NCBI GenBank assembly: GCA_002118135.1
Contig: BDIU01000253.1
Span: forward strand, 62,001 to 126,000
Source of the DNA: Trebouxia sp. TZW2008
Taxonomy: Eukaryota > Chlorophyta > Trebouxiophyceae > Trebouxiales > Trebouxiaceae
DNA: 64,000 bases
Reading direction: 5' to 3'
Within the stretch, counting starts at the first letter, position 1; each line of letters opens with the position of its first letter. Positions 6,842 through 64,000 of the stretch are shown in pieces. The position numbers and the translations under genes are program-made. The notes beneath the pieces are model-generated. The model had not been told where the DNA came from. It searched no databases and saw only the letters and a list, made by a program, of their open reading frames with translations.

Positions 6842-10531
<3,690 letters not shown>

Positions 10532-16200: not shown

Positions 16201-19112
16201 TCAACTCTTGTCGCGTCGGCGTCTCCAGACTGTACAGCATGTGACACCCCATTCATACTTGCGTGCTGTATGTCGAGTCAAGTATGGGATGTCCTCTTGG
16301 TCTATCAGGTCGAAGTGGGGATCCAAATGCTGCTTGATGCCATCAAGGGTCCTCACTGGCTCGTTTGCCTTCTGCAGTGAAAGGCAGAAGGTTTGAAAGG
16401 CAAAATTGGCTCATGTGCGTTCTACAATGACAGACAGAACCTTTGAAAGGCAACACTGGCTCATTTGCCCCCTGCAATGAAAGGCAGGCCTTACCTTTTC
16501 TCCTTTTTTTCTTCCTTTTTCTTTGTACTGGGGTCTTTTTGGGAAAAAACCTTGCAAGCGCAACATCTTTGAAAGGCAACAAGCACAAAGCCAACACGGT
16601 ATATGCTGCATCGAGTATGCTTACAGTCCTTGCTAAACAGCAACAAACAGGTTGCTTTCAGGCAAGGACCAAATGCACAAGATTGCTGGTTGAAGACAGT
16701 TGATCGCTCCAGTACGTGCCTAGCTGAGCCTGCTGAGCCTGTCCAGCACGCGTCTTCAATGATTAAAAACGAATGAAGGACCAAAAGCTATGCACAGACT
16801 GACAGCAATGCTTTCAAAGCAGGACCATGCTCAACAACATTCACCTTGTAAAATCCGCCAAGCCAATTTTCCTTGGGTGTATTGTGCTCTGACCATGAGT
16901 GTGCTGATGACAGCACCACCACCCCGTCTGGTTTGACTAAGCTGGATAGGCGGTCCAAGAACAGCGCAGGGTTTGGAAGACGCTCAATGACATTGGCAGC
17001 CAGCACAGCATCAAACTGTATCAGATTCTGTGGCAACCTGCACAAATCTGCCTGCAAGCAACGAACCATCATGCAGAAAGGAAATCATATGCTTTGAAAG
17101 ACAAGTGTATGCCAAACGGTATCAGACTCCACAGCAACCTGCACAAATCTGCCTGCAAGCAACAAATCATCACACAGAAACAATATACACACATGCGTAC
17201 ATACAAATACATGCTAGTTTGGCTCAAAGGCCTTGCTAGGTTCATATCGTCACCAAGCAACTGTCTGTGATCAACCCAGTCTGTACACATGCTGGACCAC
17301 TAAACAAAACAGAAAAATACGCTTTGAAAGAAAAGTGTATGCCAAACTGTATCAGGTTCTGTGGCAATCTGCACAAGTCTGCCTGCAAGCAATACATCAC
17401 CATGAATGGTTACTGCAGCCAGCATGCGCTGCCATGGATCATGTGTGGTGTCAAATATTCATTCGATTTTCGTTCATTCTAGACGTATGCTAGACAGGCT
17501 CAGCAGGCCCAGCTAGGTTCGTGCTGAAGCAATGAAATGTCGCCAATCATTTCGGTCCTGTGCTATCCTGAAATATGGTCAGATCATGATGTGGATGACT
17601 GGATCATGAACATGCTGAATGTGATCTGGCTGTACAGCACAATGCAGAGCCCACATGCCAATATCAGTATGGCTGCAAACTCCGCCGTTTTCCAAGGCAG
17701 CTCTATTGACAGACCAGGTGTCAGACTAGGTTTTGTATGCATAGATTTTATTCCCGGCACTTCTTGATGCTTTGTTGAGAACATCAAAGACGATTAAGGT
17801 GTAGTGGTGTGTGTGTGGCGTCGCAGCACTAGCACCTGTCCATCATCTCCCTAGCTATCTAGGTGCTTTGTTGACGAACGCCAAAGCAATAGAGTGCATG
17901 TCTGTTTTAATTTAGTTGTCTGTTCTGTATTGATTCATTGTTCACATTGTCTGTTGACTCCCCTGTTGGGTCCCAAAGACAGTCAATTACATTAATTGAT
18001 TGATGGCAAACCTGTATGAATTGGACGCGGTCTGCATCCACGTCATCAGGAAGCTGTGCTAAGCGAGTAGCTGTGATGTCACCCTCCTCTGCAGTTGTAA
18101 AAGCGAGAACGCCCTCTCTCTGTAGTACCTATGCACATCACATTCATTCTTGATCCACTGAAGGTGTTTGCCATGCAGGACACAAGCAGCATTTGGTCTG
18201 TTCCAATATCAACAAAGCTATCACAGGCAATGTGGCCCGTTTTGGCAGCAACAACACAAAAGCAATCTACATTCTGTGCATGCACTGATGCAACTTGCTT
18301 GTTCGAAAGAAAGCAATTTTGCTGCCAAAAGTCGAAAAGAATAGAAGACACAGGATTCTATGCCATCAGACGTCAATATGGGGGCTTCTGTGAATACAGC
18401 CAGCCTCAGGTACAGGAAAATGTGCCACTTCACGGGGCTGCTCACCTGTGCAGCTTTTATGAAGTGCTGAGAGCTGTCAATGCCAACAACAGACTGGAAG
18501 GCTCTTGCAAGGGCAAACAAAGCAACCTTGATGTCTCATAGGCATTGGAGCAGTATATATACATGTGAGTGAGTGCACTGCTGACCTGTGCAGCTTTGAT
18601 AAAGTGCTGAGAGCTGTCAATGCCAACAACAGATTGGAAGGCTCTTGCAAGGGCAAAGGAGCTGCCCCCTACTGCACAGCCCAAGTCTAGTGCAGCAGCT
18701 CCACCTTGTTCTCCTGTGAAGTCTTGCAAAGCTAGGCAATTTCGCTCGCACAGCAATACAAGCCTGTCTAGGAACTGCAAAGCCTCCTGCAGGGGACTGA
18801 TCAGCTTCGTCAGCATGCGATCATGGCGCAAATTGAGGAATGCAGATAATCATTGTGTACCTTTGGTCCACCTGGGTACGGCAAAACTTCCTGTGGGGTT
18901 GCGTAGTGGAACTGCAAGTACTCATCAACTGCCCTTTTTACGTCGAAGGAGTGGTCGCCATTCGATACAGGCCGGACGCCCGCGCGGCTGAACCAGCCGT
19001 GATATCTATACAGTCTGTAGGCTGAGTATGCTGCTGCTGCCGAGGCGCCAAGGGTCACTGCAGCGACCGTGTACCGTTTCGACCACTTAAGGTCGGAACA
19101 CCTCTGCAGCAT
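16201..19112 (-). CDS. OvoA C-terminal-type methyltransferase (putative 4-mercaptohistidine N1-methyltransferase)
   Basis: Exon 1 (18861-19112) starts MLQRCSDLKWSKRYT, has a hydrophobic Ala-rich anchor (VAAVTLGASAAAAYSAY), and ends EYLQFHYATPQEVLPYPGGP. Exon 2 (18586-18786) carries the SAM-binding motif ALDLGCAVGGSSFALARAFQ and VVGIDSSQHFIKAAQ. A later exon ends at 18012 with ITATRLAQLPDDVDADRVQF. The next (16845-17051) gives FDAVLAANVIERLPNP and ENWLGGFYK. The last (16201-16371) gives EPVRTLDGIKQHLDPHF and ARKYEWGVTCCTVWRRRRDK. These blocks match the C-terminal methyltransferase domain of OvoA (ovothiol pathway) in order. The sulfoxide-synthase part of OvoA is absent, so this is a stand-alone, possibly membrane-anchored enzyme. 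Small exons between 18095 and 18580 were not resolved. Introns carry several exon-fragment copies. Confidence 0.85.
16365..16495 (-). repeat. Three tandem copies of a 3' splice acceptor region
   Basis: The intron end and first codons of the last methyltransferase exon (plus strand GGCTCGTTTGCCTTCTGCAG) recur as GGCTCATGTGCGTTCTACAA and GGCTCATTTGCCCCCTGCAA, about 60 bp apart, each with a GAAAGGCA neighbour. Only the copy nearest the exon continues into the conserved coding sequence. Confidence 0.75.
16700..16778 (-). repeat. ~70-bp dispersed element, copy 2 (inverted)
   Basis: The reverse complement reads GCTGGACAGGCTCAGCAGGC, then TCAGCTAGGCACGTACTGGAG, preceded by TTCATTCG. It matches copies at 13410-13482 and 17460-17533. 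Confidence 0.75.
17085..17405 (-). repeat. Two pseudo-exon copies of a methyltransferase exon start
   Basis: The acceptor and first codons of the exon at 16845-17051 (encoding ADLCRLPQNLIQ) recur at about 17120-17165 and 17350-17395, each with the flanking GCTTTGAAAG...AAGTGTATGCCAAAC block. Neither copy continues into FDAVLAANV. Confidence 0.85.
17460..17533 (+). repeat. ~70-bp dispersed element, copy 3
   Basis: Reads GCTAGACAGGCTCAGCAGGC and CCAGCTAGGTTCGTGCTGAA, preceded by TCGTTCATTC. Same orientation as the copy at 13410-13482. Confidence 0.8.
17742..18004 (+). mobile_element. ~260-bp dispersed element, copy 1
   Basis: From CTTCTTGATGCTTTGTTGAG to ATTAATTGATTGATGG this block matches 43752-44013 over its whole length, with shared landmarks GCAGCACTAGCACCT, GGTGCTTTGTTGAC, and TGTCTGTTGAC near the end. 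It ends in ATTGATTG-type simple repeats, as 3' ends of non-LTR elements or SINEs often do. It sits in an intron of the methyltransferase gene. No protein is encoded with confidence. Confidence 0.8.
18440..18540 (-). repeat. Copy of the 3' half of methyltransferase exon 2
   Basis: The block repeats 18580-18665, including the donor site and the codons for FALARAFQSVVGIDSSQHF, with only a few differences. It lies in the intron immediately downstream of the true exon, about 145 bp away. Confidence 0.9.
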
Positions 19113-20080
19113 ACTCACGCAGACCTCCTAAGGCCCATTCTCAAGACATGATTTGTGAAGGCAGCAACAATACGGAACACAGCACGTCTGCAGCTTCACA
19201 GGACGTCAATCGCGCAGTGTGTGTGTGTACCTTCGATGTTGTTTGCCTCTGGCAGCATGAACGAGCTCCGAAACCAGAACGTTCATCTACTGTTCAAATT
19301 TCGCATAGCTTGTGCTGAGGGCTTTGCAGGCCATGCAATAGCACAGACCGATGCACCAATAAGAATTACAGAACCCGCATCTTGCGGTGAGGTCCAGCGC
19401 AGACAATCGTCAATAGCTCAATGCATGACGCTGGACCCAGGCATGCATGCATATACAGCATTTGGCAGCATTTTGAGGCCTCTTCTGGCGCTGTAGCGGC
19501 AAGAAACATGTACACTTCAGGCAAATTTGTAGCCATGACGACTGATATTGTCGTTTCTCCCCTTATTATACGCGCGAGCGAGTGAAACTTTCTTTGCAGG
19601 ATAGGCTGGTGAGTTTGAGCAAAGGACCTGTCATGGAAGTTGCACACAGCCAAATTACTCAACAGTCTTTTACGAATCAGTGCACGCATGATGTCCTGTT
19701 ATGCAGCGCCATGTTTCAAAGCAGGGCTCAGAATCGTCCCGCAGAGCCTCACACTGTCCGTCTCGAGGAACCTTCTGCCGGTGTGCACCCTATAGGTTCG
19801 GCTGTTCGATGAATTGCGGACCGAGCTTGAGTTGCGTGCAGTCGTTGAAGATTTGACTTGCCCGTGCAGGAAAGTAGCGTTGGCTTGATAACGCAGCAAA
19901 CGCTCAGGTGTTGCAGATCGAGTCTGCCGCAGTAGCAGGACGCGGCGCAGAGCCACGGAATGTCATCTCCGACAGGGCTTGTGCTCGTTTGCTTCTCCGG
20001 CGTTGACCACATCAGGTCGACCAGCTGTGTTCGACAGCTTGTTGTAAACATAGTTCAGAGTACGCACGTGACTCCGACGA
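19113..20080. promoter_or_regulatory. Divergent intergenic region, methyltransferase / DJ-1
   Basis: Contains the start regions of the minus-strand methyltransferase and the plus-strand DJ-1 family gene. A minus-strand frame at 19699-19956 is Arg/Ser-rich and looks like a targeting peptide, but begins at GTG and lacks a following exon. An unrecognised first exon of the DJ-1 gene may also lie here. Confidence 0.4.
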
Positions 20081-23033
20081 ATGGGTGACATCGATAGTGC
20101 CTCACGCAGGACGCAAGACGGCAAGAAGCACGAGACTGGGTTCTTCCTGAAAGAGCTAGGCGCACCTTTGATCAAGATCCTTGAGGCTGGATATGGTGTG
20201 GAGGTAATGGCTTGCATAGCTGGCTCAGAAACAATAAAAGACAGAAACTTTGCACAAGAGCCTGTTGCAGATGCACTCTGCATGCATGCATGCATGCCTG
20301 GCAGTAGGTCATGCGTGAAACACATGATGCATAGACAGTGCAGTCGACATGATGATTGTGATGCCTTTGACTCAGCATTTTGCTGGGTAGCGTTGACGCT
20401 TTGTCATACACTACGATTTATGGGTCCCTGGTCCTGTTGCTGTGGGGCTGTGTAGTCTGAGATTGCTATGTATGTGCAGCTGCAGATCAAGCATGAAATG
20501 CTGAAGCCAATGGGATCATGATCATGCCAGCATGATGTTGTGTGTCTTCATGCTTTGCATGCCTCTCCTGCATGGAGTCAAGTCAGCTGCTTTTGCAGTT
20601 CGCCAATCCTATGGGTGAGGAGCCTCGCATGGGTTCCTCGTCACACGTGAATTGCTAGTTCAGAATGCACCGTGATATCATGCCTCGTCATGCTTTGTAT
20701 GCTTCTCCCGCATCACATCACAGCTGCTGTAGCGGTTTGCCAATCTCAGTGGAGAGGAGCCCCACATGGAAGCCTTGTCAGACATGAACTGCCAAATCAG
20801 AATGCACTGTGACATCATGCTTTGTCATGCTGCGTGCCTCTCTCGTGTCAAATTCAGCTGCTGTTGCAGTTTGCCAACCCAACTGGTGAGGAACCACACA
20901 TATATCGCTTGTCAGACAGCTCCATTTCTTTCATTTATTCTCTTTCACTGAATCTCTCTACAGCTTGTTCATGAATCTCTGAGTCTTGACATTCCTTGAT
21001 GTGAAGTGACACTGGCATGAGCATCAGCCTTGTGTTTAGCAGCAGAGCTGAGTCATGGATCTTGCTTCATGCAGCTTGTACTCACCAAATGCTGTGTGCA
21101 AGCTCTGCTTGATGGTCATCCAGCTTCTTTCAGTCGTGCTCGTTGTAATTGTGGCGACTGCTGACACAAACATGTACAGTAGGGCCTACAACGATGAGTT
21201 AAGGGCTTACAGGATGTTTGCCTAGCTTCACAGATAGAGAAACTGTAAGGAAATGATTGTTGTTGCAGTTTGCCAACCCAACTGGTGAGGAGCCACACAT
21301 GGATCCCTTGTCAGACAGCTCCATCTGGTTTCTGCCCAGCCTTACAGAAATAGAGAATGAGAAGGAGTTGTTGAAGAAGATTGGGGCGGAAAAGAATTTC
21401 AAGAGACCTACCAAGTTCAGTGACATCACAGAGCAGCAGCTGCAAAAGTATGTTGGCATTTTGATTCCTGGAGGTATCTACAGCTCAACCTTGTCATCAA
21501 CAGCCCAAAAGCCTGTAAGCTGACAACCACTTTTGTCTCATGCGACACCTGATTGAATGACCTGCGTCGTTTTCAGCAAACTAACCTCAAACCCTAATGG
21601 CATTTCACCACTTGTAATGCTCAAACGCTGTGCAAATTGTACACTTGTTGCTCATGCGCCAATGACTGACCTATTGTCTGACAAGAACTTGGAGTTGCAT
21701 TCTGCAGCGTTTTCAAATGTCACAGAAGCCCAAAGCCAGCACTACAATTGTTACTCACTTTGATCTCACTGTAGCATCTCAAGGTTACTCGAGCTGCTAT
21801 ATGCACAGCTCATGCGCCAATCACTGACATGTGGTCTGACAAGGAGTTAATCGCATTCTCCTGCACTTTCACAAGACACAAAACTTCACTGCTAACATGT
21901 GTCAATTGTGACGATGTCGCTCACAGGTCATGATCCAATGACTCATCTTTGGTCTGACAAGATATTTGCTGCACTTTCACAAGACACAGAAGCCCACTGC
22001 TGGCATGTGCCATGGCGTGGTGGGTCTGCTGTCCACCAAGACTAAGAGTGCGGACCCAGACACCCACTGATGCTACAATGGCTATGAAATGACCTTACAC
22101 GCTACCTTCATTTCATTGCTGTCAGCTGTGATACAATTACAATGTAACTTTGCATAAGGATCATGTGCCAGTGACTGCCCTGTCCAGGACCCTGCTCGCA
22201 TTCTCCTGCAAGTCCACAAGTCACAGAACTCACTGCTGACATGTGCCAATCGTGACGATGTCGCTCACAGGTCATGCACCAATGACTGATCTTTGGTCTG
22301 ACAAGGACTTGGGACGGATTCTGCTGCATTTCCACAAGACACAGAAGCCCACTGCCAGCATGTGCCATGGTGTGGTGGGACTGCTGTCCACTAAGGTAGC
22401 GGACCCAGACACCCCCTGGTGCTACAAGGGCTATGAAATGACCTGCTACAGCAACACTGAGGAGAAGACCAATGAAGCTTTGTTTGGGGACAATTTGCAA
22501 TTCAAGGTAACTCCTTGTGAACTTCTGTGAGACTGCTCTTGTCAGTGTATCTAAATCTGTTGTTTTGCGTTGCCTTGATGTCACCAGAGCGCATTACAGC
22601 ACAATTTGCGCTTGAAAGCGGTGAAGTCAACACATACGACAGGCGACATGCACGTCATATGTGATGACTTTGACAATACCCTGAGCTTGCTGTAGAATTA
22701 TAGAGTAACAATGGCTAGGCAGCCTGACCACATGGCCTTCAGGCTGGGCATATTTGTGCAGACCCTAATCATGATATTATAGCAAATCTGTTGTGTCCGT
22801 AATTGAACAAATGTGTGCAGTCCTGTTCAGCATCAACTCCTGGACGAACATGAATGGCACGTGCACATTTGCAGGCGGAGGATGTGCTACGTGAAAATGG
22901 TGCAATCATGAAGCAGGCGTACCCTATGGTGTCAAAGGTCACGGTGGACAGAGAAGTCATCACAGCACAGCAGCCCAGCAGTGCCTTTGCCTTTGGAGAT
23001 GCTATTGTCAAGGCGCTCTCTGCCAAGGCTTGA
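20081..23033 (+). CDS. DJ-1/PfpI family protein (class I glutamine amidotransferase-like fold)
   Basis: The first recognised exon (ATG 20081) gives GKKHETGFFLKELGAPLIKI and ends LEAGYGVE. The exon from about 21269 gives FANPTGEEPHMDPLSDSSIW, ILIPGG at its end, and an intervening helical region. The exon at 22269-22506 continues HAPMTDLWSDKDLGRILLHF and holds the nucleophile elbow ASMCHGVVGLLS. The last exon (22876-23033) gives AEDVLRENGAIMKQAYP and VTVDREVITAQQPSSAFAF, stop at 23031-23033. The order E-x-x-x-P, then PGGHxPM, then the CHG nucleophile with catalytic Cys, then ITxQxPxSA matches Hsp31/PfpI-type DJ-1 proteins, which act as glyoxalases, deglycases or stress chaperones. The first beta strand of the fold is missing, so an upstream exon is likely. 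TGTAA lies at 23710. Introns and the 3' flank contain many degenerate exon copies. Confidence 0.85.
20590..20930 (+). repeat. Three pseudo-exon copies of the DJ-1 second exon start
   Basis: The acceptor and codons for FANPTGEEPHM at 21266-21320 are repeated at about 20592, 20728 and 20862 with spacing near 135 bp. Copies carry substitutions such as CCAATCCTATGGGTGAGGAG and CCAATCTCAGTGGAGAGGAG. All are followed by TGTCAGACA or CGTCACACG blocks and lose the coding frame. Confidence 0.9.
21640..22095 (+). repeat. Degenerate copies of the DJ-1 nucleophile exon
   Basis: Blocks at about 21650-21740, 21815-21900 and 21925-22095 repeat the start of the exon at 22269, including GTCATGCACCAATGACTGAT and the ACACAGAAGCCCACTGC segment. 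The third copy even covers GCATGTGCCATGGCGTGGTG around the catalytic Cys codon, but small deletions break its frame. Confidence 0.9.
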
Positions 23034-23425
23034 TGCAGAAGTCTACAAGATGCAGTCATGCAGCAGGCATATCTTATGTGAAAGATCATGGTAGAGAGAG
23101 AAGTTCTCACTGCGCAGCAGCCCAGCAGTGCCTTTGCCTTTGAGGACGCCGTTGTCAAAGCGCTCTCTCCCAAGGCTTGTGCAGAACCATGCTATGTGCA
23201 GGAACTGCAATGTTTGATGTCACTGTATTGGGTCTTGTGATGTATATGCGCTGGATGAGAACAAACATGTGTTGTCTTGGCATGTCTGGGACCTCATTGC
23301 ATTCTGGACAGAGAAGACATCGTGGCACAGCAGCCTAGCAGCGCTTTTCTCTTTGAAGACGCCATGGTCAAGGCGCTCTCTGCCTCAGCTTGGTGCAGAA
23401 TTCTACATCATGCAGTCACTGCCAG
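23034..23425 (+). repeat. Two copies of the last DJ-1 exon downstream of the stop codon
   Basis: The coding block around GCAGCAGCCCAGCAGTGCCT is repeated at about 23040-23185 and 23300-23420, with GACAGAGAAG and CGCTCTCTGCC landmarks kept. They lie after the true stop at 23031 and so are either 3' UTR or alternative 3' ends. Confidence 0.85.
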
Positions 23426-23760: not shown

Positions 23761-23866
23761 GAATGTGCTGGTCTGACGAAGCATAAGGTCTGCCCAGCAT
23801 GGTCTTTCCAGCACACCGATCAGCAACCAAGCAGAAGATGCAGCAACACAAGTCAACAACAACGAC

Positions 23867-26800
23867 TTAGGCTTCAGTTTGAGTCTGATCAGAGTTGCTA
23901 GGCTCATTTAGCAAAGGCAAGTGGGCAGATTCTTCAGAGTCTTGCCCATTTGATGTTTCTGGTGGATTCAGATCATTTGTTGATTGCTGCTGATCCCTGT
24001 AGTCTGGGCTATACCTAGCTAGCACAGCTCCCCAAGCATATATAGCTGCAGCTAGGAGTAGGAAAAGACTGCAGATGGACATGCTCAACCTGCCACACCA
24101 AACAACGATTTGTGTAACAAGTTCAGCTGTTGTGAGTTTACAAACAACTGCAGTTTTGGTTGAAAGATGACTTTCAGGTTGATAGGAGTAATAGGAGGCT
24201 GCAGATGGACATGCTCAACCTGCCAGGGATTAGCAAGACCTGCTGGACATCATAGGACTGGGGCCAAAAGCTGTTGGATACATGACCGTGCTCGCTGACA
24301 CAGAGCAAGTCATGGCAACTTGTGAGACAGATGGCATCATGCCTTGAGCATGGGACATGACGGCATGAACATTGGCATCAGTATCGTCAATGCAGCAGCA
24401 CTTGATTGCTACTGATGTAACAAGACACCACCAGTCCTTACATTCCTGTCAAGCTTGCATTGTCAGCAGCTTGGCAAACATAAAACATTTACAGGCTTGT
24501 CAAAAGAGCACTATTGACCTGCATTTAGCAAGGTTGCTCTGTGGTCACAAACAATACTGCCATCACTATGAATGCTTGGGATTGACAGCACCTCGTAAAA
24601 GAACAATTTCTGGAGCTTTGAGCAACACTGACCTCCAGTTGGAGAGGTTGCTCTGCAGCCAGCCTAGGGCAGGCGGGGAGGGTACATCGCCCCCCAGGTG
24701 GATACAGATAATGAGTATGGCCATGCCAAAAGGGCGCAACAGTGCTGGCACTGACCACAATGCCACTGCATTTGAGGGTGCCTGCAGACACATTGGAAGA
24801 GTTGGGTCTGACTGCTGTAATGGCTGGCGCATGCAGGGCGACTACATACCAAATTCATCATAGTAAAAGACTGCTCAAGTGGACACAGATGTGATGGAGA
24901 CTGAGCTCACGGTGTTCATGATTGTGTTGTGGTGTGATCTGAATAATATTCAATGCAGACACTGTTGGAATGCCTTCTCAGCAGAGTTGCTAAGGGCCAC
25001 AGTGGCACTGGCATTGAAAACAAAGATCGTTGCATTGGAGGGTGCCTAGAGTCAGCTAAGTTTGCCTGGTTGCTGTCAGATTGGTGAGTTGATTCATCAT
25101 GACGTTTTGTCACGAATGACGCATGCGGGACCTCCGCACACACAGCAATCCTGTCACAGTAACAGGCTGTTCCTTTGCACAAAGATGTGAGGCACATTGA
25201 CCTCAGAATGATCATGATCATGCTGTGGTGTGATCTGAACAATATCCACAGTAAGTTCTGCAGCCGTGCCCTCTCAGCAGCATTGCCACAGGGCCGCAAC
25301 AGCACTGGCATTGGCAACAATGCTACTGCATCAGAAGACGCCTATAAGCAAGGCATTATTATGCAGACTGTTGGCATTGTCTGCAATTTGGGCATGTAGT
25401 ACAAGGTGGTACAGTGACTTCTCTTTGCAACGACTGCTTTGCTTCCCAAGAAATTGTCCTTACTGTTGCTTCTGAACTTGCAAGAGATACGATGGCAGTC
25501 AGCATGCATTGATTGCTTGCCTTGTCCTGACATTACAATTGTCCTTATATCAGGAGTCCGTGCAAATGGAAGTCACTGCAGCTACTTGCACAGTAGAAGC
25601 AACCGTGACTGTGCTTGACTCAAAGGACTGAAGACATGCCTTTGCAACAGTTGAAGGCATGCCTCAACTACCTTTTGGTCAAGCACGGCCACATTTCCTT
25701 CCGCTGTGATCGTAGTCACCATCAGAACATTGCCCACCGACTACATGGCATGATGCGCATGCGTACTCAAAAGCTGACAAGGGCAGGCAAACAGCACAGC
25801 AGCAGCACACAAATGCGTTTGCAGGGCTCACAAAGGTGATGAGGCCAGAGTGCAAGTGTTGCAAACCAGGATGCCATGCTGAAAATCATCAGCCATACCT
25901 CACACAAAAGTTGTACGTAATAGGCATCAGCCACAAAGAGAGATCTACTGAGTCCTGTGAGACTACAAGCTGATCATAATCGAGCCCAAGTAACAGCTGC
26001 AATCATCAGCTAGCTGCAATCAATGGCTGCATCCAGGAGCTGCATTCAATAGCTACACGTAACAGCTGCATGCAGACACTATCCTGCATGCAGCAAGTGT
26101 GCAAAGCTCAAATGTTGAACGTCCACAGTATGTGACCTAAAGTCATAGCTGCTAGCAGTGTATAGGACAATTCTGCGAGCAAATCTGTGTAGCAAAGAGA
26201 GCCAGCTGGCCCAAGGCAAAGTAGGGGACAAACATGGCAACATTTGTTGCTGTCAATAGTGCTGATGTGAGTAGTGTTTGGGACTGACCTGAACGGCCAA
26301 GAGTGCGAGCAGGCCCAAGGCGAAGTAGGGCACAAACATGGCAGTACCCACTGCTGTCAGAAGTGAATGGGGGCATGCTTTTCTGATGTCAGTGATGATT
26401 CAGGCTGAACTGAATGGCAGAGAGGGCCAGCTGGCCCAAGGCAAAATACAGCATCAACACCACAGTCCTCAATGCTGGCAGCGGTGTTTGGTACTGAATA
26501 GCTGATGGTAGCGAAGGAGGCTGACCTGTATGGCAAAGAGCGCCAGCTGGCCCAAGGCAAAGTAGGGCACAAACATGGCAAAGGAGGAGGCCGCAGCAAA
26601 GCTGGCCACCAGCAGCAGCGCCCTGCAAACCATGGAAGCTGTTGCTGACGCAGCCGATGGCCAGCGCGTGGTTTCATACAGGACCCAAATAGAGAAATGA
26701 GCACAACAAGTCTATGTACAGTAATATCCAAGGGACAATCATCAATAATATTGCTAACGCACAAAATGGCCAGCACGTGCTTTTGTGTAGGACCCAAACA

Positions 26801-29800
26801 GACAAACAAGCACAACACGTCTTTGTTCAGTAATGTCCCAGGGACAGTCACCAAGATCATTGCTGATGCAGCAAATGACTCAGGTGTGTTTGATGAGAAA
26901 CACACCACATCTCATGAAGCACTCAACAGCACAGCGACGGAACTGTAAGATCCAATACATAAGACATCTGAGTGCTTTATGCCAGGTACACTCACAAGCG
27001 ATCACTGCTGAAACCGCAAATGACCAGTGCATTTTCAATAGATGACGCAACATGATCCATCAACCAACCATTCATAAGAGCATATCGCATCTTCATGTGC
27101 GCTATATCCAAGTCTGCTCACCCAAGAACATTGCTGACGCAGCAAATGGCCATGGCGTTTTTCTTGGAAGACCCAACACGGTCCAGGGCCACCCCCCCTA
27201 GTATGGTGCCCACCACCCCTGTGCCCACTGTTACAGCCCCAAACTTCAGATCAGCCCCTTCAGGGGCCAAATGAAACACCTTGGCCCCAGCTTTAGGCCC
27301 CCAATATGCATACGCTCCCAGCACACCTGGCACACAACAGCAAAATTGCATTTGAACAGTCACAAATGGTGGCATTGGACAGTCACTGCCCCAAATTTGA
27401 GGTCAGCCCCTGAAGAGGCCAGATGCAACACCCTAGCCCCAAATTTTGGGGCCCAGTATGCGTATGCCTCCAGCAAACCTAAATCACAGTGGCAAAACAG
27501 AAGTTGGACAGTCATAAATTGTGTGACTGGAGCATCGCCGCCCAAATGGTGAGATCAGCCCCTTCAGGGCCAAATCAAGTACCTCGGCCCCAGCTTCAGG
27601 CCATCAGCATGCATACACCCCCAGCACACCTAGGGTGCAAGACAAACATGTGAATGGCACAAGTCACACAATGCATGCAAGTCGACAGTCACTGTCCTAA
27701 TTGTGCCCAACAGGCTACATATTGACGCGACCTTGTTGATAGCAATGGGGAATACACAGCAGTATTGAGTGCTGCGCTGTGTAGACACTGCTGAATGACA
27801 ACAAGGGTACTGAAGCCTTACACAGGAGCTGTCTTTCTGCAACAGCTGGACAGCATATGCATGGCTGTCTTTCCTGTACAGACCCACCAGCTAACAGCAG
27901 GCATTTGCACAGGCCAAGGAGGCCCTGAGCAGCATTCGTGTCTGCGAATGGGGTGATCATGCATTCTCATGCAGCATAACGCCAGTCATTCATCTGTTGC
28001 TCAGGTGATTGGGCAGCAGTCTCATGTGTAATTGTGAGGGAATGGCATGCATGCACGCGGATTATGATGTCAACCATTCGTTCCCCTCCCAGGTGGTTGC
28101 TGCACTCAATGCAGCCCTTGAGCAGGAATTACATCTCCAACTGGGATAGGAAGGCATGCAGTGCCATGGCAGTGTGATGTGAGCCATTGGTCTGGCTGTC
28201 AATGGGGGCGCTGAATATTTGCATATGGTGGGCCAGCAGGCAGCGGCAGCATGATGGCCTCACAGCAGGGAACTCATCTGCATACACAGCTGTGCCTGCT
28301 ACCATGGCTTACAGAATCAGAAGCTTGTTCTATATATCACCTGTACATATTGCTATGTCTGTCCTGACACCTGTCTCGTGCAGCACTGCATGCAATCTCC
28401 ACACAGAGTACATGTAATGCGCCTGCCATGTTTGTCACATATAGCGGTGAGTGCATTGCATGGTCTGACCTGTATACACGGCTGTGCCTGCCACGTTTAG
28501 CACGTACACAGGGTGCTTTGCCAAGGTCTTCAAGTCTGCTAGGGCGCTGCTAATGCCATGCTGCAGCTTGTTAGTCACGCCTTTGCTTGCTAGCGAGCCA
28601 GCATCATTCTCACCTGCAAACATCATCAAGCGTCTTTTAAGAAACATAAGATATGCGTGCACTTGCAAATGGAAGCATGCTTGCAACCCTTGCAATTTTC
28701 TTGCGAGCTAGGATCGTCTCCACCTGCAAGCACCACCAGACGTCCCTTGTGCCATGTAGGGCATGTCTGCAAATGACAGCATGTTTGGGCGTGCTAGAAA
28801 GCTAGAGTTATCTTCACATCCCCCATAAAAAGTGTTGCTGCTTCACAGGACCTGCCTGCAGCTGCAACGGAAAGCAGGCATCATTCACAATTTCATCAAA
28901 GGTTTTGACTTACCAGTGTGTTGTGGCTTGCCTCTGAGGTCTACAGCAGGCCCAACAGCACAGAACAGAGCAGTGCAGCAAAAGCTTCCAGCAAAAAAAC
29001 GGCTCTTCAGCCCAGGGCTGGTGCAATAATGCCCCCCCAGGATATAGCCAGCAGCATAGCCGACAGAGATGCACAGGTCCTACTCACATCTTGTAGAGCT
29101 TCCTTACAGGTTATGACTTACCAGTGTGTTGTGGCTTTCCTCTGGGGTCTACAGCAGGCCCAACAGCACAGAATAGGGCAAAGGGCAGCATTGCAGCAGC
29201 CTCCAGAAGGAATACAGCCCTCCAGCCCAGGGCTGGTGCAATAATGCCCCCCAGGATATAGCCAGCAGCATAGCCGACAGAGATGCACAGGTCCTACTCA
29301 CATCTGGTAGAGCTTCCTTACAGGTTATGACTTACCAGTGTGTTGTGGCTTTCCTCTGGGGTCTACAGCAGGCCCAACAGCACAGAATAGGGCAAAGGGC
29401 AGCATTGCAGCAGCCTCCAGAAGGAACACAGCCCTCCAGCCCAGGGCTGGTGCAATAATGCCCCCATGATATAGCCAGCAGCATAGCCAACAGAGATGCA
29501 CAGGTCCTACTCACATCTTGTAGAGCTTCCTTACAGGTTATGACTTACCAATGTGTTGTGGCTTTCCCCTGAGGTCCACAGCAGGCCCAACAGCACAGAA
29601 CAGGGCAAAAGGCAGCATAGCAAAAGCCTCCAGCAAGAAAACGGCTCTCCAGCCCAGGGCTGGGGCAATGATGCCCCCCAGGATATAGCCAGCAGCATAG
29701 CCAACAGGGATGCACAGGTAGAAAGTGGCCAGCCAGCGGGACTTTCTTTGTGGTGGCGCTGTGTCATCTGCAGCAACGAGAACGGGGTGCCGTCAGGCAA

Positions 29801-31385: not shown

Positions 31386-32299
31386 CCTGATCTTGGCAAA
31401 ATCTTGCCGGACCAAGCACCGCCACGCAACGCACTTGAATGCGATGCAGCTCAGTCAATGCAGCTAGAAAAAGAGACCCCTAAAGCAATGCGGGAGTTGG
31501 GAGAATCCGCCGTTAATGCAATGCTGCAAGGCTGTTTGGTACACCTGTATCTTGTGTGGCAAACTTTCTACATGCACCACATCAGATCGTGGTATTGCTT
31601 ACACTGCAACCATCGTTGTAAGAAGCACATGATCAAGTGCACGACACGACATCGACTTTTGTCTGTAAGGATCCGACTCATCAGTGTTTTGCTGCAAGCT
31701 CTACTGCATGTTTTTGTCATTGCATTGCAATTCCTTGCAGATGTGCGCTCACGATTGCTTAAGCATCTTCATTGCTGCTTTTGCAAAACTTTGAGGACCA
31801 CTACATGCTGAAGGACTGTCATTTGGATCTTTGCAACAACATAGACAGAGATCATGAACTTCACGGGCAAACCCCCGTGGCCAGGACACTCATGCATATG
31901 AGGCACATGTCCTGGCTGCCATCAGATTTGCAGAGCTGTTTGCGAATTGTAGTGTTTTGGTAGGAGCATATTCGCAGCACAAAGTCAAGCAGCAACGCGT
32001 TGACAAATTGGTGCCTCATCGACGTCTGACAGAGAAGCATCTACATCATGTGCATGTGACTGCAACATAAGCGGAATGACACGAACCCCTGACACTCCTG
32101 ACTTGCTGTTGACGCTCTCTCGGTCATACCACGAGGCTGGCATCGCTTGTTGCTTGTTCTGGCACAGAAGGAAAATCATGACGCATCGTACGGTATGACA
32201 CAGAAGCATGCGCTCAACCATGCATACACGAACTCAGTTTTGTTGTATAACGCTTCAAGCGCATGCTAGCATGATGCTCGATGGAACGGTTGTCTGCAT
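31386..32299. promoter_or_regulatory. Divergent intergenic region, spinster / thaumatin-like
   Basis: Holds start regions for the minus-strand transporter and the plus-strand thaumatin-like gene. A minus-strand ATG frame at 31985-32221 (78 residues, beginning MVERMLLCHTVRCVMIFLLC) is open but has no recognised homology, so it is listed only as a possibility. No promoter element was identified. Confidence 0.35.
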
Positions 32300-53084: not shown

Positions 53085-56000
53085 ATGTCGTCTCCGCCCC
53101 GATGGAACTTGCCGCCAAGTTCAAGCCCTTTCGGATTGGCAAGCCCGCAAGCCGGCCTGCAGCTCGAGGACTTCGACGAAATCTTACTGCCGCGAGCTGA
53201 GCAAGATGCTCTGCTAGCTGGTCCCGGCCCGGACGAGAGCCTCGAGGACCTGTTGCCTTTGCATGCACATACGGGTCCAAGTGCATTAGCACAAAGTGCA
53301 AGGCTAGATGCGGCAGTTGTGGGAGCTTCTCAGGCATCTGCAGAGCAGCAAGGCAACAGCTCAGCTTCCAGTGAAGTTGCCAATCAAGAGCAGGAGCTGT
53401 CTGCTGATCCTGGCTCTCTTCCTAGCACAAGAAGAACGCACAGTGCGCCTTCGAATTCCTCCTTGGAAAGAAAACTAGAAGTCAACAGAGCAGCGCAGAA
53501 AAGATTCAGACAGCGCCAAAAGGTCTTGCACTCATCTGCGTTGAGTAAATCTTGCCTGCCTGCCGCTATGCGCAGCATTGAGATCTTTATCAGCATAGTT
53601 TCACTGCATTCTGAGTATCCTATCTAGCTACCACAACATGCTGCACATGTCAAGCGTGTTTAACATGTAGCAATGCTGGTCGTCATCTAGGCTGTGCAGT
53701 CAGAGTGATGACAGCAGTTGGCACTTTTGTTGCAATTGGTTTTACAGTTACAGTGGCCATATGCAACAATGCAGGCCAGAGCACAGCAAGTGGAAGAGCA
53801 GCTTGCCACAACCAAATCACAGCTTGACGAGCTTAGGCAAGCTCAGGCGGAGCTTGAAATGCGCAATCAGCTGCTGGAAAGCGCTGCAAAAGCGCAAAGT
53901 GCGCTGTCCACACAGCCTGAGGATGCTCTTCTTTGGAAGGTATGCAAAAACCAAAAATGAAGATCTGCAACGCTTGAGTTGTTGCCAGCTCGACTGTGAC
54001 TCTATGCCTTTCATCAGCGGGACATTCGCCTTTTCTTTGAGGCAAACACTGATCAGCTGCCTTTGGTTGCCAAACACATTCACCTGTGCTTTCAAGCCAG
54101 GAAGTCTGATGAGTCACATCTGGGCCCCTACCCCGGACTGTAAATTCTATTTATGACTGATTGATTGACTATGTGAGATGATGGGGTTGAGTTGAGAGCA
54201 AACCCAAACTATCATGTGGGGCTTGTGCTCAGCTTTCATGCGTCAAGCCAAATCCACCAACCCTTACTCAAATGTCAAGCATTCAATACATGCCAACTGG
54301 CTCTTGCATGCCAGACACCTTCCATGGCACATACACTGATGCATTTGCTGCCTGGTAACGCCATGCAACATGTTTGCTTGTTCACGTGACGCATTTTACC
54401 TGGAGGCTGACTCTGTGACACAGTCCACTGCTTAGTGGAGGCCTGAACCCTGCACTGCCACCAATGAATCTGCACTTGCTGTGATCCAGGGGGTGGCGGC
54501 CTGGCAGGAACAAGTTCAGCTCAATCAACATCAGCTGAACGCATTGGCGCTGGCTTGGAAGTTGATTCATTTGAGCATCTCCCCAAAAGTTGCATCACCA
54601 GCAGCCTATGACAGCGTTTGCTGTGGTTCAGGGAGACGCAGCCTGGCAGGAACAAGTCCAATTGAATCAACATTAGCTGACAGCATTGGCGCTGACTTGG
54701 AAGTTGCCTTCTTCTTTCATGTGGGAGTCTCACCCAAAGCACCAATGATGCATTACAAGCAGCCTATGACAGTTGATGTTGTGATCCAGGGTGATGCAGC
54801 CTGGCAGGAACAAGTCCAATTGAATCAACATCAGCTGAAGGCATTGTTGCTGACTTGGAAGTTGCCTTCTTCTTTCAGTGGGAGTCTCGCCCAGAGCACC
54901 AATGTTGCATTGCCAGCAGTCTATGACAGCGTTTTTTGTGGTACAGGGAGATGCAGCCTGGCAGGAGCAGGTTCAGCTGAACCAGCATAACCTGAAGGCG
55001 CTGGTGCTGACTGTTTGGCCGCAGAACCACTGGGTCTCTGTGAGGGAAGTGTCGCAGCTGCCTTTGGCCAAGTTTGCCAACCTGTATACGGTAAGAACTT
55101 GCAGTAGCCTGCGTGGAACATTAAGGTGTTGACGTGCCTCAATGTGTGGAAAGCTGAAGTTGACACAAGGCGCTCAACAAGCATTGTTACCGTAAGTTGT
55201 GCCATTGATGCTAAAGGCTGACATGCATCTTGCTCATGTTGCCAGTACCACCCATCATGCTATAGCATACATTGGCCAGCTGTTCAAACTCTGCATTCAA
55301 CCAGCAAATTATGCTCACCACCCACCGCAGCACTTCCAATGGACACCAGCGACTATGAGCACACAGTCTTTTCCAGTGCAAGAACCTTGCAGTGTCAGAG
55401 GCTTGAAACAGTGTGGGGTGTTGCCTGCAGCTGTATGTACAGAAGCTGGCAACATGTCTGCTTGATGAGCCCCAAGGCAGCGCTGCGCCGCTTAACTTGC
55501 TGAGGTGGACAGCTGAAGTCTCTAGTCTGGTACAAATGCAATCTGCCAACACCTGTCATCTCACTGTAGCTGCTTGCAAGTCACTTCAGATCAGCACTGT
55601 GCGGGTTTTACCTAATGCATGTGTCGTCAACAACAGTGTACTGATCAGCACAGTACAGCAGCACTGTTATGTAATGCACTCTGACATTTCCAGCAACTGT
55701 GGCATGCTTGGCGAAGCACTGGCTTGTGTTTGACTGCAGCATGTATGCAAGCAAATACTGCTTGTAAGCACAGTCTGCTGCAGTCTTTGTACCTGTGCCT
55801 GCTAGCCATGCCTGCCACTCTGCCTCAAATGTCATGCATCACTTCAGCATACAAAGACGTCTGACAACCCTGACCCATCACATGAATGTTTGATGAGGAA
55901 GAGAAACGTGTGATGCAGGTCTTGGCAGTGGCACTATGCAACCCCAGCATGCTTCACCAGTTCTGCAGCAGCCGACTGGACTTGGGCAGCGTGGTCCAGG

Positions 56001-59268: not shown

Positions 59269-62200
59269 CTAGTACTCATCATCAGCTGCTGCCTTACTGC
59301 TCTTGTTGCCCTGAACATGCGGCTGCTTCTGATACATCTCAACAACTTGTTCTGCGCCTGTTGCCTGCTCAGGGTTCTTATCGTCTCGCACCCGCACCAA
59401 GCGTGGAAACCTGATGGAAATGCCCTTGACTGCATCTGCCATGCCAGCAGCAGCTTGGTGAACAGGACTGATGGACAGATCTGCTGCTTTCACCTCCCAC
59501 ACACTCTTCGGCTCAAACCAAACATCTGGCAACAGTGTCTCGCCATACCTGGGAAAACAATAAGCACAGCATTGGACATCATCAAGGAAGACCTGTGTGA
59601 ACAGAAGCAGCCCAGACCTGCTGCCTGTGGACAAGTACCCAGCAGACCTTGCTTGCTGCTTGCAATTCTGTTTGAGCATAGCCTGCAAGTACGTTGCAGC
59701 AATGGGCCTGGTAGCAGTGCATATGCTGCAGTGACCAATCAAACGCACGAGAACCCCTTGGTAAGGCCTTGGCAAGAGCAAGGCTCTGCCATCGTAGGGA
59801 AGCAAAACAAATGCTGGACCCACTCAGCATGGCACAACAGTTTTTGCGCAGAAGGACCTGAACCACGTGGGTCTCAGCTGTGAATACTAAATTGGACTGG
59901 AAATTAAGCAACTCAGCATGCACTGCCTCAAGCAAACCAGAAAGGCTGCATCACAACCGCAGCTTGGCAGCCCTTCATAGTAGAAGAGTATAACTGTGAT
60001 GTCTGACCTGTAGTATGAGCGAGGCTCTGGGATGGTGAGAGGCCTCAGCAGGTCAGCCAACTCCTTGAGCTGCTCCTCTGAGAAGCCGGTGCCAATCTTG
60101 GAGATGGTCTGGTACTCCTCACTCTCCTCGTTGTAGATGGCCAGCAGATATGCTCCAAACACGCCAGCCCGCTTGCCTCTGCAGCGCAAAAGCCATAACA
60201 GAGCATAGACCAGTACGCAATGCAGAGCACACAACTTTTGTCTGTGTAGATGGCCAGCCGGCACACCTCAAATACACCTGCCCACTTGCCTCTGCCATCC
60301 GGAGTATATGAGTACAGCATGACACAGAGACAAGGTCTCTGCAAGCCAGGGCTTGTGATCAGAGCACAAGACAGTCAATGATCCACTTGGATGGCCCGTT
60401 CAAACGCTTCAACACGTCTGCCGGCTTGCCTCTGCAAATCAAGGTAATGTTTGGGGCACAGAGCGTGGGTCAGGTACATCGAAGCATGCACGTATGAGCC
60501 TGCTATGCAAATCTACTGTCATGCAATATTGCAGGACGCCAAAGAAGCAGTTGAGATTGCTGTCACGCAGCTCAAGCACATGAGGTTCAAGAATCTGCAT
60601 CACCTGACATCATGAACGGCTGGATCAGCAAAAAGGCAAGTCAGCTCCTAATGCCCTGTTGTACTTCTTTGAGAGAGTGAGAAAGGAAGGACCTGGACAG
60701 TCAAAGCAAATTCGGCACAAGAGAGGGTAGGGGGCTCACTTGCCATACCAAGCTCCAATGGGCACTAGGTCAAAGGTGTCCCCAACACCTTCCAGGTAAT
60801 CCTTCTTCAGCTTCAGCCAGTGCGCGCTGCGCCTGCTGGGCTCGTAGGTGCTGTCTAGGGTTTTGACAATCAGACCCTCAGTGCCCACATTCACTGCCTC
60901 ATTCAGGAAGGTGGACAGCTCCTCTAGGACTGTTGAAGTCTGCATCACAATGACACTTTGTTGTTTGTTGATCAATCGATAAATTGATTGACTGGTTGTT
61001 GAAGCTATTGAGTGATTGACGGACAGAGTGGTGAATTTCTTGGTTTGTTGGTCGGCTACTGAGGTCCTTGAGTGACTGACTGATCCACTTGTGACTGTCA
61101 GGAAGCATTGACTAATCGTCTGTTTGTGAATGATTCAAGGCACTGGCAAGCAGTAGTGCCATTGAGCACTGAAATAGCGCATTCTGTGAATTGCTACCTC
61201 TCTTTGCAGCAGCGCAGAACAGCTCGATCTGCGCATGGATGTACACCAGCACAGTCTTCAAAAGCAAGTCCTACCTGGGTAGTGGCATAGAAAAGAATAG
61301 AATGGAAGAATAGAATGGAATGGAAAAGAATGGAGAATGGCAGAGTACAGGGCCTTGCAGCATTCGAGCAAACAGCCGCCCACTGGCATGAATGCAACAG
61401 AGCAGTGCTCTTGGAGATAGCACACCCCACCTTGGCGACGGCAAAGAAGAGTGCACTCTAAGAAAGCTATGCCTACCTGGGAATTAGCATACAACACCTC
61501 CCCTGGCTTCTCACAGATGGCATAGCAGCACAAGACAGCTCTCCGGCTCAGATGAAGCTAAACTCTGCGCTCTGTAGGAGCATGTACTGTGTGGAAGCAA
61601 GAAGTACCTTGGCAGTGGCAAAGAACAGCTCTCCTGGCTTCTCATGGATGGCAGAGTACAGAGCCTGGCAACATTGAGTCAAGAAGGGCTTCACCAGTAT
61701 ACAAGCAACAGACCAACGCACTCTGTGAAAGCTAAGCCAACCTTGTCAGTGGCATAAAACAGCTCCCCAGGCTTCTCAACCAATGCCAACGTGTATTAAA
61801 GAACTCTAGCAAAACCAAAGGCTACCTTGGCAGTAGCGTAGAACAACTCCCTTGGCTTCTCATGTATGGCAGAGTGCAGGGCCTCGCGGCGTTCAGTCGA
61901 GGGACAATCCACCAGTATGAATGCAACAGACCAATGCACTGAGTAACAGCAACACCTTCCCTGACAATGGCACAGGACATCTCCCTCAGTGAAATTGATT
62001 TACCTTGGCAGTAGCATAAAACAGCTCTCCAGGCTTCTCATGTATGGCAGAGTACAGGGCTTCACGGCGCTCAGTCAAGGGACGGTCCACCAGCACTTGG
62101 CCATTCAGGTAGAGGCAGTCAAAGGCGTACAGGCACACTTGCACCTTGATGTCAGCCACCTTCACGTCCTTGCGCGCCCTAGTGCTCAGCACCTGTCACA

Positions 62201-64000
62201 CCACACAGCAATGTCAGGTGAAGACACACATTCTTGTCTTGACAGTAAGTGCTGTGAGCACTGTTGACTAGCGCCATCATCACCACCAGCCAGATGCATG
62301 TCAGCAAATGCTATGAGCACTAGTACTTAACACCTGTCACACAGCACCCAAAGGCATGTGAGCACTGTGGCCTTTGCACACGCTTCTGCTGCTTCGACAA
62401 CAGCAGTTGCTATAGGTGCTGTTGCCCATAGAAAAGCTGACCTCTCTCTTGTTGGTGACAAAGTCATAGGTAAGAACCCTACCAAAGCAGATCAAAGTCA
62501 GCAATGCAGGTGCCTGGGAGGGCAAAATCTTCTTGGTGACACGGTCACATGCCACAGCCTCACACTTCAGCTCTCACATAGCAGCGCATAGTGGTCATGT
62601 GCAACAGCCAGAAGTGAGCTTGCAACCCATATGAATGTCTAGGATGCCAAACAAGTACCTGGAAGGACAGGTTCTTGTTGATGATGCAGTCATACAAAAC
62701 AGACCCAACAAAGCATCAAAGCATATCAACCAATGATGAGCAGAGCAGTCACCTGGAAAGGCAGGATCTTCTTAGTGACTCGATCATATGCCACAGCTTC
62801 ACAGTCAAGGACGACACTCTTGGTGCCCTCCTTCAGCAGCTTGGGCACATCAGCCGCCAAGTCTGGATACTTGGCTGTGTTGTTCTCGCTGTTGCGACTG
62901 CACACATAGGTTATCATGAATAGACACTGTCATTCTTGCTGTCATAATTACAAATGTCATAAAGTATGGGCTCTTTATGTTTCCTACTGTGGTCAATGCT
63001 TTTCTGAGTCTGGCTACTTGTCTGTCTTGCTTTTGCAACTGCACATGCAACACTGGACATTCTATCTACAGAAATCTGATTGTGCTTGACGCAATGCCAA
63101 GTCTGGGTACTTGGCTGTGTTGTTCTCGCTGTTTCGAATGCATATGCGAGGCAGAGACCCCAGTAAGGCTTTGAATATCTCAATCTTGAATGAACGCACT
63201 GCCAAGTCTGGGTTCTTTGCTGTACCTTTTTTGATATTGCACAGGCAATATCAATCTTTGCATGTTGTATCTTGTCGGGAGTGCATTGCCAGATGTTGGA
63301 ATTGCCACTGTTGCTGTAGCGGCTGCACATGCAATACCCATTTGCAAGATATGATCTCTTACAGTGTTTGCGATACCAAGCCAGGCTGCTTGCCTGTCAT
63401 GCTTTCACTGCTGTTCATATGACTATTGATGTGGCCCCACCTGTAAATGCTGACTTTGCCGCCTTCACTGATATGGACTTGAGCCCGTTCGCCATCGTAC
63501 TTGTACTCGCATGTGAACTCAATGTCTTGGAACTTGTCCAGAACCTCAGACACCCCAATGGTTGGCTTAGCCAACATGGGCTTCACAGGGACCCCCACCA
63601 CAAAGCTCACGTGTTGCTTCAACTCCTGCATGGAAGCAATGGCAGCTCGTGACTCAATTCTGACATGTCCTGGAAGTTGCCTCACAAGTCACATGTTGCA
63701 ATCCTTGTACTCTCAGTGGCATTTTGTGAACAATCTAAACATGTCTTGGGCTTTTTATGGCGACTTGGACAACCCAATAGCGGATTTGGGCTAACATGGG
63801 CTTCACAGGGGCCCCCACCACAAAGCTCACGCGATGCTTCAACTCCTGTAAACAATCTTGTTGTGGATTGGTCCTGGCGCCTGCAGTGTTTTTGGTGTTT
63901 ACAGTAATCGCTGTCACCTTTGCACGGCTGCCTATCAGCTCAAATGTTTTAAAGTGAGGATGTATGGGTGAGTCAAGGCATAGCAGAGCAAGATATTGTT
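59269..64000 (-). CDS. LIG1: DNA ligase I, 3' part (5' end beyond the window)
   Basis: Exons from high to low coordinates: [20 protein letters not shown] and the adenylation motif [14 protein letters not shown] with the nucleophile Lys (about 63440-63640); [20 protein letters not shown] and [20 protein letters not shown] (62755-62895); [20 protein letters not shown] with [10 protein letters not shown] and [10 protein letters not shown] (62006-62193); [40 protein letters not shown] (60740-60945); [20 protein letters not shown] and [20 protein letters not shown] (60010-60180); [20 protein letters not shown] and [20 protein letters not shown] (59269-59550). Motifs I to VI of ATP-dependent ligases appear in order. 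The protein joins Okazaki fragments and repair nicks in the nucleus. The N-terminal PCNA-binding and DNA-binding regions lie outside the window. Introns are filled with partial exon copies, so the real exon list needs transcript support. Confidence 0.95.
60235..60435 (-). repeat. Copies of the start of a ligase exon
   Basis: The acceptor side of the exon encoding [14 protein letters not shown] (plus strand AGATGGCCAGCAGATATGCT with CGCCAGCCCGCTTGCCTCTG) recurs at about 60247-60298 as AGATGGCCAGCCGGCACACC with TGCCCACTTGCCTCTGCCA, and more briefly near 60415 (GTCTGCCGGCTTGCCTCTG). Confidence 0.85.
60965..61090. repeat. ATTGATTGACTG-type simple repeat
   Basis: Degenerate tandem ATTGATTGACTGGTTG-type tetramers in a ligase intron. 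They resemble the simple-repeat tails of the ~260-bp element at 17742 and 43752 and may mark the end of a decayed copy. Confidence 0.55.
61268..61920 (-). repeat. Five or six copies of a ligase exon 3' end plus donor
   Basis: The exon end encoding [19 protein letters not shown] at 62006-62070 is repeated at about 61273-61375 (interrupted), 61435, 61478-61520, 61608-61690, 61742-61785 and 61825-61915. The copy at 61825-61915 is open throughout and reads [20 protein letters not shown] before a GT donor. The copy near 61608 is open in part; the others are degraded. All lie downstream of the true exon, in the intron that follows it. Confidence 0.93.
61289..61338. repeat. GGAAT/AGAAT microsatellite
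   Basis: A short run of AAAGAATAGAATGGAAGAAT-type pentamers lies inside one of the ligase exon copies and splits it. Confidence 0.85.
62475..62690 (-). repeat. Copies of the KKILPFQ exon end in a ligase intron
   Basis: Plus-strand GGCAAAATCTTCTTGGTGAC through ATGCCACAGCCTCACA at 62520-62570, and a shorter ACCTGGAAGGACAGGTTCTTGTTGATG block at 62657, repeat the exon end and donor at 62755-62810 (encoding [14 protein letters not shown]). Confidence 0.88.
63090..63340 (-). repeat. Copies of the NTAKYPDLA exon start in a ligase intron
   Basis: The acceptor side of the exon at 62755-62895 (plus strand AAGTCTGGATACTTGGCTGT and GTTGTTCTCGCTGTTGCGA) recurs at 63098-63135 almost unchanged, at 63200-63250 with decay, and weakly at 63290-63330. 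Confidence 0.88.
63795..63850 (-). repeat. Copy of the start of the ligase exon before the active-site Lys
   Basis: ACATGGGCTTCACAGGGGCC and CCCACCACAAAGCTCACG at 63795-63835 repeat 63574-63612, with the same CAACTCCTG end. The copy reads [18 protein letters not shown] and is open until just past the block. Confidence 0.88.

Follow-up and report, generated by a model that had tools for sequence, protein, structure and literature searches.

Copies of Exon Edges in Trebouxia Introns Suggest Small Tandem Duplications Filtered by Splicing

Introduction

Intron lengthening is usually ascribed to mobile elements. Here we examine a stretch of 64,000 nucleotides from the green alga Trebouxia sp. TZW2008 (assembly GCA_002118135.1, contig BDIU01000253.1, positions 62,001 to 126,000; hereafter the window), part of a 68.5-Mb, 527-contig genome, in which all ten gene models of the window carry partial copies of their own exon edges within adjoining introns. 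The original prediction, made from letters 16,201 to 64,000 of the window, had proposed a general process behind this pattern. We describe the copies, their decay and their distribution, and weigh how they may have arisen.

Results and Discussion

Genes in the window

Three genes are verified by homology: a sulfurtransferase, a methyltransferase and DNA ligase I. The spliced sulfurtransferase model equals protein P0001 at 298 of 298 residues and matches its closest named protein relative, from Trebouxia strain C0009, at 69%. The methyltransferase model equals P0241 (315/315 residues), with 74–75% to its closest named protein relatives, from Trebouxia C0006 and C0010. P0001 is encoded in an unbroken frame on a contig of 1717 bases at the longest, while the genome spreads this frame over 6.7 kb; for P0241 the margin is small (at the longest 2789 bases, also unbroken, against a genomic span of 2909). 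Since these unbroken frames lie in contigs shorter than the genomic spans, we infer that both sources are transcripts. The ligase was identified by a homology search with a query joined from seven genes, for which the best 120 matches were DNA ligases only; the start of its first listed exon was taken from P0123 and P0124. This gene is the "ligase" of the original prediction, and the "spinster" named there is probably an MFS-family model on the minus strand (23867–32143).

All exons outside these three genes are predictions of a simple gene finder of our own, trained on homology-supported exons. Against 13 known exons it placed eight exactly and five with one end off, and it called many extra exons, some of which are copies; before the confidence filter it predicted 23 exons for the sulfurtransferase, which has seven. 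Pfam domains above cut-off in the gene models were tubulin-tyrosine ligase, rhomboid, DJ-1/PfpI, MFS, FKBP and, barely, PP2C; bZIP_2, at 20.7 bits, stayed below its threshold of 22.3. Counts beyond the window come from 25 sequences totalling 298 kb (the enlarged set); loci outside the window carry the labels L003–L026. Guanine-cytosine (GC) content is 48–51% in the window and 19 stretches of other contigs; the 63–74 Mb and 49.6–51% GC reported for Trebouxia genomes (PMC11523091) are in keeping with this composition and with the genome size.

Copies of exon edges and local direct repeats

Self-comparison of the window yielded 91 local direct repeat pairs against none in one first-order Markov control. 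The 19 stretches from other contigs contained between 1 and 24 direct pairs per 10 kb each, again with none in each control. Throughout the enlarged set, local direct repeats make up 15.6% of the sequence, and local pairs are direct in 319 cases and inverted in 20. The pairs group into 151 clusters, 93 of them single pairs, and 24 of the 25 sequences contain at least one. For the 146 clusters with offsets below 500 bp the median offset is 151 bp (10th to 90th percentile, 83–268).

Many of these repeats lie at splice junctions. We found a partial exon copy at 90 of 510 confident splice junctions, and 85 of these point outward, that is, to the intron side (58 acceptors, 27 donors), while five point inward; this agrees with the prediction that donor copies lie downstream and acceptor copies upstream of the exon. 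A copy of this outward kind is present in 21 of the 25 sequences. Every window model (10/10) has at least one junction copy, as do 35 of the 41 models with at least four confident junctions. The expectation that nearly every multi-exon gene is affected is thereby confirmed, and it extends to the region before position 16201, where the tubulin-tyrosine-ligase and rhomboid models have one case each. The further claim that copies always include a junction is too strong: it describes the three verified genes, where 11 of 11 clusters straddle a junction and none is intron-only, but the 151 clusters divide into 87 junction, 19 intron-only, 2 intergenic, 25 ambiguous and 18 others (8 at a terminal exon edge, 5 exon–exon, 4 exon-internal versus intron, and 1 whole exon).

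The sulfurtransferase intron 37928–39736 illustrates how splice sites are multiplied, as had been proposed. Its eight copies of the end of exon 3 align with scores of 65–153, compared to at most 29 in 50 shuffled introns. GT is intact in all six copies that reach the donor: the sequence is GTGAGC or GTAAGC in five and, as in the real donor, GTAATC in one.

Introns with junction copies are longer than those without, with medians of 679 and 308 bp (36 versus 99 introns between confident exons, P = 1e-9), which bears out the idea of a general lengthening process in unrelated genes. Subtracting recognizable copies reduces intron-labelled sequence from 191 to 166 kb.

The duplicated unit reaches a median of 66–69 bp into the exon and an implied 68–85 bp into the intron (10th to 90th percentile of the intron part: acceptors 41–189 bp, donors 44–169 bp). 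Since units extend this far on both sides, the breakpoints do not sit at the junction, which lends no support to the suggestion of microhomology at AG|GT sites; the exact breakpoint bases are unreadable. Unaligned sequence separates the copies in 26 of 28 pairs with at least 90% identity, and decay has left the breakpoints illegible as to marks of overhangs, fill-in or microhomology. Intron parts shorter than 25 bp occur in one of 59 acceptor cases (an array in which the alignment exceeds the offset) and in one of 27 donor cases, and by this rarity surviving units seem to carry a whole working splice-site module.

Offsets of exon–exon clusters are divisible by three in four of five cases, as selection predicts. 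At junctions, multiples of three are scarce (2/21 at ≥85% identity, P = 0.013; 21/84 overall, P = 0.06), an observation too weak for use; no shortage is seen among the offsets of intron-only and intergenic clusters (10/21).

Table 1. Exons and exon-edge copies in the window (percentages are identities between exon edge and copy or between repeat units)
Feature	Position	Strand	Basis
Sulfurtransferase exon 3, outermost (used) copy, donor 39737	39737–39980	minus	P0001 identity
Exon 3 end (last 84 bp), eight copies within the intron (82–93%): 39603–39669, 39392–39485, 39217–39309, 39060–39151, 38933–39024, 38811–38903, 38663–38752, 38534–38583	38534–39669	minus	local alignment
Sulfurtransferase exon 6, acceptor 35180	35039–35180	minus	verified model
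Three intronic copies of acceptor and exon 6 start (81–84%): 35306–35364, 35554–35614, 35737–35786	35306–35786	minus	
Tandem pair (86%): 34535–34614 (spans acceptor 34566), copy 34617–34695	34535–34695	minus	
Methyltransferase exons: 18861–19112, 18586–18786, 18012–18128, 16845–17051, 16204–16371	16204–19112	minus	P0241 identity
Donor 18586: exon end 18578–18657, intronic copy 18438–18517 (95%)	18438–18657	minus	
Acceptor 17051: exon-start copies 17113–17172 (87%), 17343–17392 (94%)	17012–17402	minus	
Acceptor 16371: 50-bp tandem unit, copy 16454–16487	16354–16487	minus	
DNA ligase I, partial, start beyond; exons: 63441–63625, 62753–62897, 62004–62192, 60740–60939, 60008–60178, 59272–59548	59272–63625	minus	spliced alignment to algal ligases P0122, P0123, P0124
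Acceptor 63625: exon start 63570–63628, copy 63790–63848 (93%)	63570–63848	minus	
Acceptor 62897: exon start 62856–62902, copy 63096–63142 (94%)	62856–63142	minus	
Donor 62753: exon end 62739–62803, copy 62500–62564 (78%)	62500–62803	minus	
Donor 62004, intron 60940–62003: copies 61823–61905 (87%), 61740–61778 (92%), 61605–61664 (90%), 61474–61525 (79%)	61474–62060	minus	
Acceptor 60178: exon start 60132–60182, copy 60245–60295 (78%)	60132–60295	minus	
DJ-1/PfpI-family model, acceptors 21269 and 22271, several upstream copies	20541–22444	plus	ab initio exons
MFS model, donor 26526, intronic copies (26185–26240, 93%)	26185–26581	minus	ab initio exons
MFS model, 214-bp tandem array of exon end and donor, about 4 units	28892–29719	minus	ab initio exons
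FKBP model, donor after 42883, copy 42939–42996 (81%)	42846–42996	plus	ab initio exons
bZIP-like model, acceptor 54947, upstream copies (76–80%)	54476–55012	plus	ab initio exons

Decay of the copies and the site used in splicing

Mismatches between exon and copy are distributed over the three codon positions as 0.13, 0.10 and 0.23, in the class of copies whose alignment runs into the intron. This profile shows a coding exon paired with an unconstrained copy. In the intron part of the same alignments the mismatch is 0.19 (plus 0.04 gaps), or 1.7 times the mean of codon positions 1 and 2 (2 times if gaps are counted), which is close to the factor of two expected if only the used exon copy is constrained. 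The splice dinucleotides of this class are kept in 34 of 39 cases for AG and 14 of 20 for GT. The total of 48/59 (0.81) is at or slightly above neutral expectation, which is 0.69 by a simple estimate and 0.78 from the rate at codon positions 1 and 2. Splicing at the copy would break the reading frame in 81 of 84 cases (63 frameshifts, 18 in-frame stops), and therefore the outer site must be the used one. Provided that the matching proteins derive from transcripts, the mature mRNA of the sulfurtransferase and the methyltransferase uses the outermost copy. We regard the copies as passengers that decay about neutrally. Retention as alternative exons was considered and rejected, on the lack of coding constraint and on the broken frames.

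Excess at junctions

The original prediction stressed that the copies are one-sided and anchored at junctions. One-sidedness is no evidence for anchoring, because one-sided copies follow from tandem duplication with selection on the outer splice site only. Furthermore, any exon sequence left in an intron by a contiguous tandem duplication must come from a unit that contains the junction. Much of the anchoring is therefore geometry.

The question is then whether junction copies exceed what placement and selection provide. Junction clusters make up 87 of 108 (0.81), compared with 0.23–0.25 (aligned length) or 0.32 (full offset) for random placement with lethal exon hits removed. Simulated duplications, aged and recovered with the same search program, gave 0.35–0.37. 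With intron turnover raised until the share of matches ending at the junction reached and then passed the observed one, the result was 0.31–0.46. Geometry and detectability are accordingly insufficient as a full account on the present exon labels. Sorted by rising estimated divergence, the ratio of junction to intron-only clusters is 6:6, 14:4, 23:4, 18:6 and 26:1, with divergences of the two kinds scaled by assumed divisors of 1.35 and 2; the youngest class (<0.05) has no clear junction excess. If all 25 ambiguous clusters are counted as intron-only, the junction share falls to 87/133. The claim of anchoring beyond chance thus stands as an excess over random placement and selection, with its size uncertain and the youngest class even. 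The excess appears to be real on these labels, and its uncertain cause may be a true preference, gene conversion, faster intron turnover or annotation error.

Origin of the duplications

We consider an ongoing process of small tandem duplication filtered by splicing to be the probable origin of the copies. The genome would continually undergo short direct tandem duplications, mostly of about 80–270 bp with a median offset near 150. A duplication within an exon would break the gene and be lost, and one lying wholly in an intron would be tolerated. One that crosses a single exon edge would be tolerated as well: use of the outermost site would still yield the original mRNA, leaving the inner stretch of exon, splice site included, within the intron. 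Each such event would add one unit to the intron, repeated events would build multi-copy introns, and the inner copies would then decay about neutrally. Each copy presumably began as one tandem duplication, and break repair of the patch or fill-in type would be the source of these duplications.

Several observations weigh against this reading. First, the comparison covers one genome, in which single duplication events are inferred rather than observed, and most exon labels come from our own gene finder. Second, the surplus of junction-spanning over intron-only copies goes beyond placement, selection and detectability. Matched introns, meaning those that lie between confident exons and include no doubtful exon, contain 41 junction clusters among 51 compared to an expected share of 0.39–0.46; even with a 2.5-fold detection advantage the expectation rises to only 0.61–0.68 (P = 0.003–0.035). 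At estimated divergence below 0.11 the count is 43 of 57, against 0.26–0.44 in simulations up to strong intron turnover. Third, acceptors outnumber donors 59 to 25 (P = 0.0003), which the model leaves unexplained. Fourth, among 95 junctions in 248 kb, with every gene-finder exon included, 36 have a match that ends within 14 bp of the splice site. The flanks lack clear homology (z < 2) in 22 of the 31 such matches open to testing, some of them with 84–96% exon identity. Such cases are not what a plain young tandem duplication would lead one to expect.

The surplus and the acceptor bias could mean that the mutational process itself prefers junctions, with more breaks or template switches at exon–intron borders owing to chromatin, co-transcriptional structures or splicing intermediates. 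The 87/108 share, the 11 of 11 clusters in verified genes and the excess at low divergence all favor such a preference. Nevertheless, we regard it as unlikely, since the youngest class is balanced, breakpoints lie off the junction, the ambiguous clusters lower the share, the divergence scale depends on assumed divisors, and the P values are modest once a detection advantage is granted.

Gene conversion from the exon onto its intronic copy is equally unlikely in our estimate. By this process the exon part of a copy would look young, and junction copies would outlast intron-only ones. It would explain the highly identical exon parts of matches that end at the splice site and whose flanks lack homology, and also the shift of the junction to intron-only ratio with estimated divergence. 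Identity is about 0.9 at the AG and has dropped to background near position −13. However, simulated turnover alone, depending on its setting, ended 23/128 to 55/103 of matches at low divergence, compared to 14/37 observed at ≥85% exon identity, and conversion is a candidate process here. Later duplications or dispersed repeats have taken the place of some copy flanks. Exon-only copying as a separate mechanism for the ended matches is possible but not needed, as the shared intron part varies roughly between 3 and 13 bp and simulated turnover yields a similar share.

A stronger proposal combines these two possibilities: a process directed to exon–intron borders, acceptors foremost, either because local breaks or template switches are several-fold commoner there or because exons overwrite their intronic copies, so that introns grow by a genome-wide ratchet. 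We put this forward tentatively, as possible but doubtful.

Mobile elements that carry exon ends, introner-like or otherwise, are highly improbable: some copy flanks do belong to dispersed repeats (for example at L019 3136), but traced copies derive from the adjacent exon, and two loci, which together hold three junction copies, matched only themselves and one nearby inverted stretch (72%) in a search of the 68.5 Mb that skips very common words, so that with no dispersed match we rejected introners at these loci. An assembly artefact, a general risk in repeat-rich assemblies and nothing more here, or functional alternative exons can hardly account for copies that differ from the exon by about 4–35% and also from each other, recur outward in 21 of 25 sequences, break the frame and show no coding constraint.

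Relation to known processes

The original prediction knew of no named genome-wide process with such a pattern in algae. This was too strong, as the review PMC3443670 lists tandem genomic duplication among the ways in which introns are gained, and cites an in vivo demonstration as well as Gao and Lynch 2009 and Hellsten 2011. This route likewise involves short tandem duplication within a gene that splicing masks from the protein. As described there, however, the duplicated segment is exonic and contains AGGT, and its two copies come to enclose a new intron, whereas the Trebouxia units span an existing junction and extend existing introns. The Trebouxia duplications are direct, nearby and within genes. 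By our reading of the coordinates, copies lie clear of the opposite splice site in all 10 verified introns that carry them and have two known ends, so none of these 10 fits a new intron bounded by AGGT copies.

Small tandem duplications also arise from repair of staggered breaks, as PMC8355091 shows in its accessible parts, where natural rice examples and Vaughn and Bennetzen 2014 are cited. They too are direct, of short unit length and independent of prior homology. Consistent with break repair, the Trebouxia duplications fall in various sequence classes (junction, 19 intron-only, 2 intergenic and 5 exon–exon of 151 clusters), while those parts of the account include neither the high genomic density nor the splice-junction excess seen here. 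Introners, according to the accessible text of PMC9860276, similarly alter the intron content of many genes, green algae included; they form multi-copy families that make new introns, unlike the Trebouxia copies, which are gene-specific at the two loci tested.

Tandem exon duplication with alternative splicing also places extra exon-like segments beside an exon. The Trebouxia copies differ in being partial, unconstrained and mostly frame-breaking.

Among the titles and abstract openings listed in the literature search, with subscription papers mostly outside its range, none described intron duplications that span a junction in algae. Nor is such a pattern mentioned in the accessible portions of the Coccomyxa genome paper (PMC3446292) or of PMC12712428 and PMC11523091, both on Trebouxia genomes.

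If small tandem duplication is indeed the origin, introns gain segments with splice junctions through a plain process whose events are of many ages and affect most sampled genes. How often splice-site duplications occur, how large they are, how strongly they favor acceptors and what becomes of them could then be measured directly within one genus, and a normally rare route of intron change would become directly testable. The same introns would test how the spliceosome passes over several intact donor or acceptor copies within a few hundred bases. Gene annotation is affected as well, since the unaided gene finder called copies as exons.

Other observations

Some individual loci have further features. 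Sulfurtransferase exon 2 ends in a GC donor (CAG|gcaagt) at 40974, in the model that fully matches P0001. P0244, the C0010 methyltransferase prediction, lacks a stretch from the exon end duplicated at 18438–18657, possibly through annotation and possibly through splicing. An inverted repeat (78%), one of the few inverted pairs, flanks a methyltransferase exon (16687–16777 and 17458–17549). P0121, a predicted ligase of another organism that lies near green algal ligases, contains a repeat of the peptide encoded by the exon start whose copy lies at 60245–60295 here, hinting that the process may not be confined to the genome studied. Some stretches of the MFS array at 28892–29719 are 99% alike, which places it among the youngest expansions of the window.

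The flank of one copy belongs to a dispersed repeat family with members at 9673–9759 of the window and in L004, L009, L017, L019 and L022. Across the window and L003–L026 the observed-to-expected ratio of CpG stands at 0.36 for exons and 0.37 for introns, and TpG is in excess, which suggests genome-wide CpG methylation and decay. Finally, a tRNA-Leu gene with a TAA anticodon lies at 46993–47081.

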